DNA from: Flavobacteriales bacterium
GTDB lineage: Bacteria; Bacteroidota; Bacteroidia; UBA10329
Length of the DNA: 64,000 bases
Direction: 5' to 3'
NCBI GenBank assembly: GCA_021739695.1
Contig: JAIPBM010000010.1
Span: 1-64,000, forward strand
The notes beneath the pieces were generated by a model. It was given only the letters and a program-made list of their open reading frames with translations, made no database searches and was not told the DNA's origin. This document shows, in pieces, positions 62,104 to 62,146 of this stretch; positions within the stretch are counted from its first letter, which is position 1; every line of letters starts with the position of its first letter. Both the position numbers and the translations under genes were made by a program.

Positions 62104-62146
62104 CAAAACTAAAATTTAGACTGGTCTAAAAATAAATTTAGTTTTG
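62104..62146. promoter_or_regulatory. Symmetric divergent promoters and DtxR-type operator
   Basis: TTTAGAC-TG-GTCTAAA (62115-62130) is a perfect palindrome, the kind recognised by DtxR-like regulators. It is flanked by -7 boxes facing outward: TAGTTTTG on the plus strand (62139-62146) and, on the minus strand, TAGTTTTG (62111-62104). The whole 43-bp region is nearly symmetric. The plus-strand box ends only four bases before the receptor ATG. Confidence 0.75.

Follow-up and report, generated by a model that had tools for sequence, protein, structure and literature searches.

A DtxR-family regulator with a FeoA domain is known from the same phylum as the DNA studied here. PgMntR of P. gingivalis (PG1044) binds the promoter of its own operon, which encodes the regulator and a manganese transporter; the binding is better with Mn, and excess Fe leads to dissociation (PMC4805248). 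We found no palindrome, motif or operator for PgMntR described in that paper. In MntR proteins, Asp or Asn replaces Met10 and Glu replaces Cys102 of DtxR (review, PMC10317159). As for the DNA sites of the family, two dimers of Saccharopolyspora IdeR bind to the 19-bp TTAGGTTAGSCTAACCTAA, and a single one to TTAGGNNNNCCTAA (PMC8464063). Control of an outer membrane receptor is described in Stenotrophomonas maltophilia, in which MntR controls a CQNC-type TonB receptor whose promoter has the MntR box between -10 and -35 (PMC13217887). A literature search for DtxR-family operators in Flavobacterium found none, a search with the palindrome sequence of the present locus returned unrelated work only, and no DtxR-family operator in Bacteroidota was found described in the literature searched.

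The window, by which we mean the whole 64-kb stretch of Flavobacteriales DNA that was analyzed, contains a dtxR gene, a ZIP gene that starts 2 nt past the end of dtxR, and a divergent gene for a TonB-dependent receptor. These gene names, given in the original prediction, were confirmed by coordinates, strands and Pfam domains (Table 1). The gap between the start of dtxR (62072, minus strand) and the start of the receptor gene (62151, plus strand) is 78 bp and holds a palindrome. The frame after the receptor gene is aminopeptidase-like as judged by its own sequence.

Table 1. Coordinates of the features in the dtxR-ZIP/receptor region of the window.
Feature	Position	Strand	Basis or remark
ZIP metal transporter, 278 aa, BbZIP-like	60578-61414	-	Pfam PF02535; alignment to BbZIP 5tsa, E 1.4e-34
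dtxR, DtxR-family regulator, 218 aa	61416-62072	-	Pfam PF01325, PF02742, PF04023; MntR-type ligands; C-terminal FeoA/SH3-like domain
Putative dtxR-ZIP promoter -7 box TACCTTTG, predicted start about 62075	62080-62087	-	TA..TTTG invariant in 9/9 genus members; operator 27 nt upstream
Left TAGTTTTG of the original prediction, no conserved -7 box	62104-62111	-	Of 9 genus members, only G003 and the own genome have it
Operator TTTAGACTGGTCTAAA, core TTAGA-CTGG-TCTAA, one-dimer geometry	62115-62130		Window sequence; conserved upstream of dtxR orthologues
Putative receptor promoter -7 box TAGTTTTG	62139-62146	+	8 nt past operator, 4 nt before ATG
Receptor transcription start, predicted	62151, A of ATG (leaderless)	+	Inference from -7 box G at -5 as in F. 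johnsoniae
TonB-dependent receptor gene	62151-64000, runs beyond window	+	Pfam Plug and beta-barrel; 761 aa in contig (full length in L007)
Cys-Gly-Val-Cys codons, residues 159-162 of receptor plug	62625-62636	+	Conserved in orthologues

The palindrome is perfect, as had been claimed, with 7-bp arms TTTAGAC (62115-62121) and GTCTAAA (62124-62130) around a central TG. Since the window holds six perfect 7+2+7 palindromes, its presence in the 78-bp gap is only mildly unusual and by itself would be thin evidence. The decisive evidence for an operator is conservation rather than the palindrome itself. Orthologues of the regulator were drawn from 59 genomes (own genus and class) plus named genomes (own-genus MAGs, Pedobacter, Spirosoma, Larkinella, Dyadobacter and Fluviicola). 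In the resulting 110 upstream regions, nearly half of which are from Pedobacter and in which seven own-genus genomes are entered twice because they are in both collections, the best match to TTTAGRYNNRYCTAAA was 14/14 in 95 and 13/14 in 12. The search for the palindrome beside orthologous dtxR genes, which the original prediction had proposed, was therefore positive in 107 of the 110 regions at a threshold of at least 13/14. This threshold was reached by 22 of the 2670 control windows taken from these loci and by 5 of some 2200 dinucleotide shuffles. Outside the own genus, 18 of the 21 class-level loci score at least 13 on TTTAGRYNNRYCTAAA. This conservation strongly supports the idea of a DtxR-type operator common to the two divergent genes, and the palindrome is almost certainly a DtxR-family operator.

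The geometry of the site, TTAGR-N4-YCTAA, is that of the published one-dimer IdeR/DtxR site. The core TTAGA-CTGG-TCTAA has the inverted YCTAA repeats and the 4-bp spacer of a DtxR-type operator and lies beside the putatively regulated promoters; TTAGGNNNNCCTAA likewise has two inverted five-base repeats separated by 4 bp, and a single dimer is expected on the window site because of this equal spacing. The window site differs from TTAGGNNNNCCTAA in having A for the inner G (TTAGA). The protein side differs as well. The IdeR contacts Ser37, Pro39 and Gln43 are Lys37, Ser39 (Ala in most relatives) and Asp43 in the window regulator, three positions that are little varied in the 110 orthologues, and the metal ligands of the window regulator are of MntR type.

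The regulator contains the domains of the DtxR/MntR family (PF01325, 1.6e-16; PF02742, 1.6e-32; FeoA, PF04023), with 5zr4, SloR and ScaR as its closest solved relatives. The MntR ligand set is present as Asn9, Glu102, Glu105 and His106, the first two standing where DtxR has Met10 and Cys102. Position 9 is Asn in 109 of the 110 sequences, and the primary and ancillary metal-site ligands Glu102, Glu105, His106, His79, Glu83 and His98 are invariant in all 110. The score against the NCBIfam MntR equivalog NF047407 was 184.7 bits, under the cut-off of 350, and the other MntR models were also below their cut-offs; we therefore call the regulator MntR-type and not a member of the NCBIfam MntR models. 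Both PgMntR and the window regulator carry the FeoA domain, of which PgMntR has two, together with Asp19 and Cys108, and the window regulator one, together with Asn9 and Glu102.

Manganese is likely the main signal, and iron is its main rival. The core of the operator is similar to the iron-type TTAGG...CCTAA box, and heme and siderophore receptors are among the best NCBIfam and PDB relatives of the receptor. Fe or Zn can also be carried by importers of the Nramp, ZIP and ABC families found next to these regulators, and some relatives have a di-haem oxidoreductase (DHOR) gene as divergent partner. These features would fit a regulator that uses the same operator and responds physiologically to iron, in the manner of IdeR, or to zinc. 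Such a response is nevertheless unlikely in our judgment, as Asn9 and Glu102 take the place of the iron-favouring Met10 and Cys102, and in PgMntR, from the same phylum, Mn improves DNA binding and excess Fe causes dissociation. The DHOR loci deserve a separate mention. The operator precedes a DHOR lipoprotein gene, and not a TonB receptor gene, in L018 (G013), L030 (G038), L033 (G025) and L157 (G018), the identity resting on Pfam for L157 and on likeness for the other loci. The DHOR family has no known tie to manganese, and its divergent position counts against the manganese reading.

The receptor itself carries a feature that sets it apart. A Cys-x-Val-Cys motif is present in the plug of all receptors of the divergons examined and in 24 of 25 orthologous receptor matches, two of these as Cys-x-Ile-Cys; about 18 of the 25 adjoin a dtxR. 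Eighteen further TonB receptors encoded in the own genome do not have the motif there. What the window locus shares with the Stenotrophomonas module (PMC13217887) is a TonB receptor that has Cys-x-x-Cys in its plug and is, here by prediction, under MntR-type control. The differences are that the plug is CGVC (Cys-x-Val-Cys) rather than CQNC, and that the next frame is aminopeptidase-like; neither a CQNC plug nor an adjacent thioredoxin-fold gene was found at the window locus. The Stenotrophomonas receptor is thus a parallel and no proof of the same family.

On the inner membrane side, the partner of dtxR varies. An adjacent ZIP gene was found in the own genus and several families, an adjacent Nramp gene in Pedobacter (downstream), in Spirosoma and Larkinella (divergent) and in G008 of the own genus, and a ZnuA/TroA-like lipoprotein gene followed by an ABC ATPase gene in Fluviicola L117, L024 and L034. 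The Nramp, ZIP and ZnuA domains were confirmed by Pfam on representatives, and sequence likeness was the basis for naming the neighbours in Pedobacter, Spirosoma and Fluviicola. A MntH-type Nramp (E < 1e-100) occurs in none of the 17 genomes with a dtxR-adjacent ZIP and in 23 of the 42 others (Fisher p 5e-5, kinship ignored). Independent swaps between ZIP and Nramp were observed within genera, in G008 as compared with the rest of the own genus and in G057 as compared with G011, with G057 keeping the receptor despite the exchange. These natural replacements argue that ZIP and Nramp do the same job. Operators unlinked to dtxR were located in front of an Nramp (G053), a ZIP (G041), a ZnuA-like gene (G035) and a receptor (G017). 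The operator-linked Nramp of G053 (L163 2533-4419) has a C-terminal universal stress protein domain, a domain checked in G053 only; Nramp frames of similar length adjoin dtxR in other genomes.

The window ZIP (PF02535, 1.7e-22) is of the BbZIP type, with the H-N-x-P-E and Q-x-x-P-E metal motifs. Its metal-site residues align with those of BbZIP save one, an Asn at what we take to be Asp208 of BbZIP. BmtA of Borrelia, of the GufA family, is a manganese transport protein (PMC3828560).

How the operator stands to the two promoters was judged from the -7 box of the Bacteroidota sigma-A promoter, TAnnTTTG; in F. johnsoniae its T is at -12 and its G at -5, and G is nearly absent at -10 (PMC6847099). 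Two identical outward-facing TAGTTTTG boxes do exist, one on the minus strand (62104-62111) and one on the plus strand (62139-62146), as originally noted. The right box holds up as the probable -7 box of the receptor: TAnnTTTG is found 4-9 nt past the operator in 14 of the 15 divergons carrying this receptor, and the unlinked receptor of G017 has it at a distance of 4 nt. If the published spacing applies, transcription of the receptor gene would begin at the A of the ATG, with the operator spanning about -36 to -21. The left box does not hold up as the dtxR-ZIP box, being present in 2 of 9 genus members; its TTTTG tentatively sits where the -33 element belongs. The better candidate is TACCTTTG (62080-62087), whose TA..TTTG pattern all 9 genus members keep close to the dtxR ATG. 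With the dtxR start predicted at about 62075, the operator would span about -55 to -40 on that side, and the layout is accordingly asymmetric. Judged by these box positions, the shared operator is close against the receptor gene and farther off, upstream, from dtxR. The dtxR-side gap is 25-31 nt in 12 of the 15 receptor divergons and 25-26 nt in Spirosoma-type genomes. An operator that is not shared by dtxR usually has 5-10 nt between it and the dtxR box. In part of Pedobacter (for example L050-L055), the operator TTTAGATTTGTCTAAA contains the -7 box TAGATTTG, and the two elements use the same bases.

With the operator tight against the receptor promoter, repression of the receptor would follow naturally. 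Autorepression of dtxR-ZIP is plausible and less certain, as a site at -55 to -40 does not demand repression. The same site could leave dtxR-ZIP unrepressed or even stimulated, with the operator mainly controlling the receptor. The box positions and the recurrence of the 25-31 nt gap on the dtxR side in most divergons, including those of Spirosoma type (25-26 nt), would agree with this. Yet where the operator is unshared it overlaps the promoter of dtxR itself (with the box 5-10 nt away or, in Pedobacter, contained in the operator), which argues that autorepression is the usual state, and the ZIP or Nramp importer is often encoded downstream of dtxR, where repression is expected. Control mainly of the receptor is improbable, though far from negligible. 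Much less probable is the symmetric arrangement of the original prediction, in which both TAGTTTTG copies are -7 boxes and one dimer blocks the two promoters alike. Both boxes are present and match TAnnTTTG, and the left one also occurs in G003; however, the left box is shared by 2 of 9 genus members as compared with 9 of 9 for the proximal box, it has the G at -10 disfavoured in F. johnsoniae, and the gaps between palindrome and box differ (left 3 nt, right 8 nt), so the near-perfect symmetry is not there. The single dimer of that proposal fits the geometry of the site; with the operator upstream of the dtxR promoter, a simultaneous block is not supported for dtxR, and the switch would be an asymmetric divergent one. 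That the palindrome is a product of chance, or a hairpin or terminator working without a regulatory protein, is scarcely credible, for although the window has six 7+2+7 palindromes and G036 has many inside genes, the base sequence is kept, beyond mere pairing, in about 20 genera of the class, in Pedobacter and in Spirosoma-type genomes, and the operator is also located at promoters of unlinked metal transporters.

Several observations concern the boxes themselves. Mapped F. johnsoniae promoters have almost no G at -10, the base that TAGTTTTG has there, so the receptor -7 box may be weak or lineage-specific. The F. johnsoniae spacing applied to 62139-62153 and 62073-62087 predicts leaders of 0-3 nt for both transcripts, a nearly leaderless state that is unusual for the phylum; in F. 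psychrophilum, leaderless mRNAs amount to 5.5% (PMC9723704). A leaderless receptor mRNA would be unusual and counts against our preferred reading. In the window, TANNTTTG is depleted on both strands (28 against 46 expected, sd 7), which is consistent with avoidance of stray -7 boxes.

Pattern searches of the 4.24-Mb own genome returned one match to the exact 16-bp consensus, the window site. The 14-bp core occurs at four sites, namely the window site, two inside open frames and one before a recombinase-like gene, and the regulator search found one homologue. The own genome looks like a case of effectively one regulator and one operator. As further regulon sites we rejected the one-mismatch sites C26:29119, C38:2139, C5:3890 and C8:110324, which are inside open reading frames; C3:70642 was not accepted for its poor match (TTTAGGTCAATCGAAA), nor was the core-only site C22:67949, which lies before a recombinase-like gene. 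In G036 (L151-L156, several contigs), seventeen exact TTTAGRYNNRYCTAAA sites were found, many of them within open reading frames; several belong to longer palindromes similar to AATTTTAGACTCGTCTAAAATT. These are perhaps a palindromic repeat element rather than operators.

From operator conservation, box positions, ligand residues and partner-gene swapping, all read from the sequence, we infer binding, repression, metal and transport as follows. The locus is quite probably a manganese-type (possibly Mn/Fe) import switch, with an MntR-type regulator acting on the operator to control receptor and importer. With enough metal, most likely Mn2+ and possibly also Fe2+, one metal-loaded dimer would occupy TTAGA-N4-TCTAA. 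At the receptor promoter, the dimer over about -36 to -21 would keep RNA polymerase away; at dtxR-ZIP it would lie just upstream of the promoter, at about -55 to -40, and would probably exert a weaker autorepression. Metal shortage would release the dimer and turn on the Cys-x-Val-Cys TonB receptor and the BbZIP-like importer, opening a route across both membranes. A switch of this sort is of a known kind, here tying an outer membrane receptor to an inner membrane importer.

A broader proposition, on which we are evenly divided, is that Bacteroidota have a widespread, dedicated two-membrane manganese route made up of an MntR-type regulator, a TTAGR-N4-YCTAA operator and a Cys-x-Val-Cys receptor with interchangeable ZIP, Nramp or TroA-type ABC importers, the Cys-x-x-Cys plug being recurrent when Stenotrophomonas is included. 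If so, Cys-x-x-Cys plugs would be a recurrent solution for outer membrane manganese uptake, a process that is poorly known, with MnoT of Burkholderia and the Stenotrophomonas candidate (2026) as examples. The locus offers a conserved, testable operator for Bacteroidota, whose pattern can be used for annotating metal regulons across the phylum, and the Cys-x-Val-Cys plug motif marks a candidate family of metal receptors.

Second dtxR paralogues were observed in G048 (L214) and G034 (L215). They have altered recognition helices and GTTAG-N6-CTAAC palindromes and adjoin Cys-x-[VI]-Cys receptors. These two cases are suggestive of a paralogue-specific operator and of covariation between regulator and operator.
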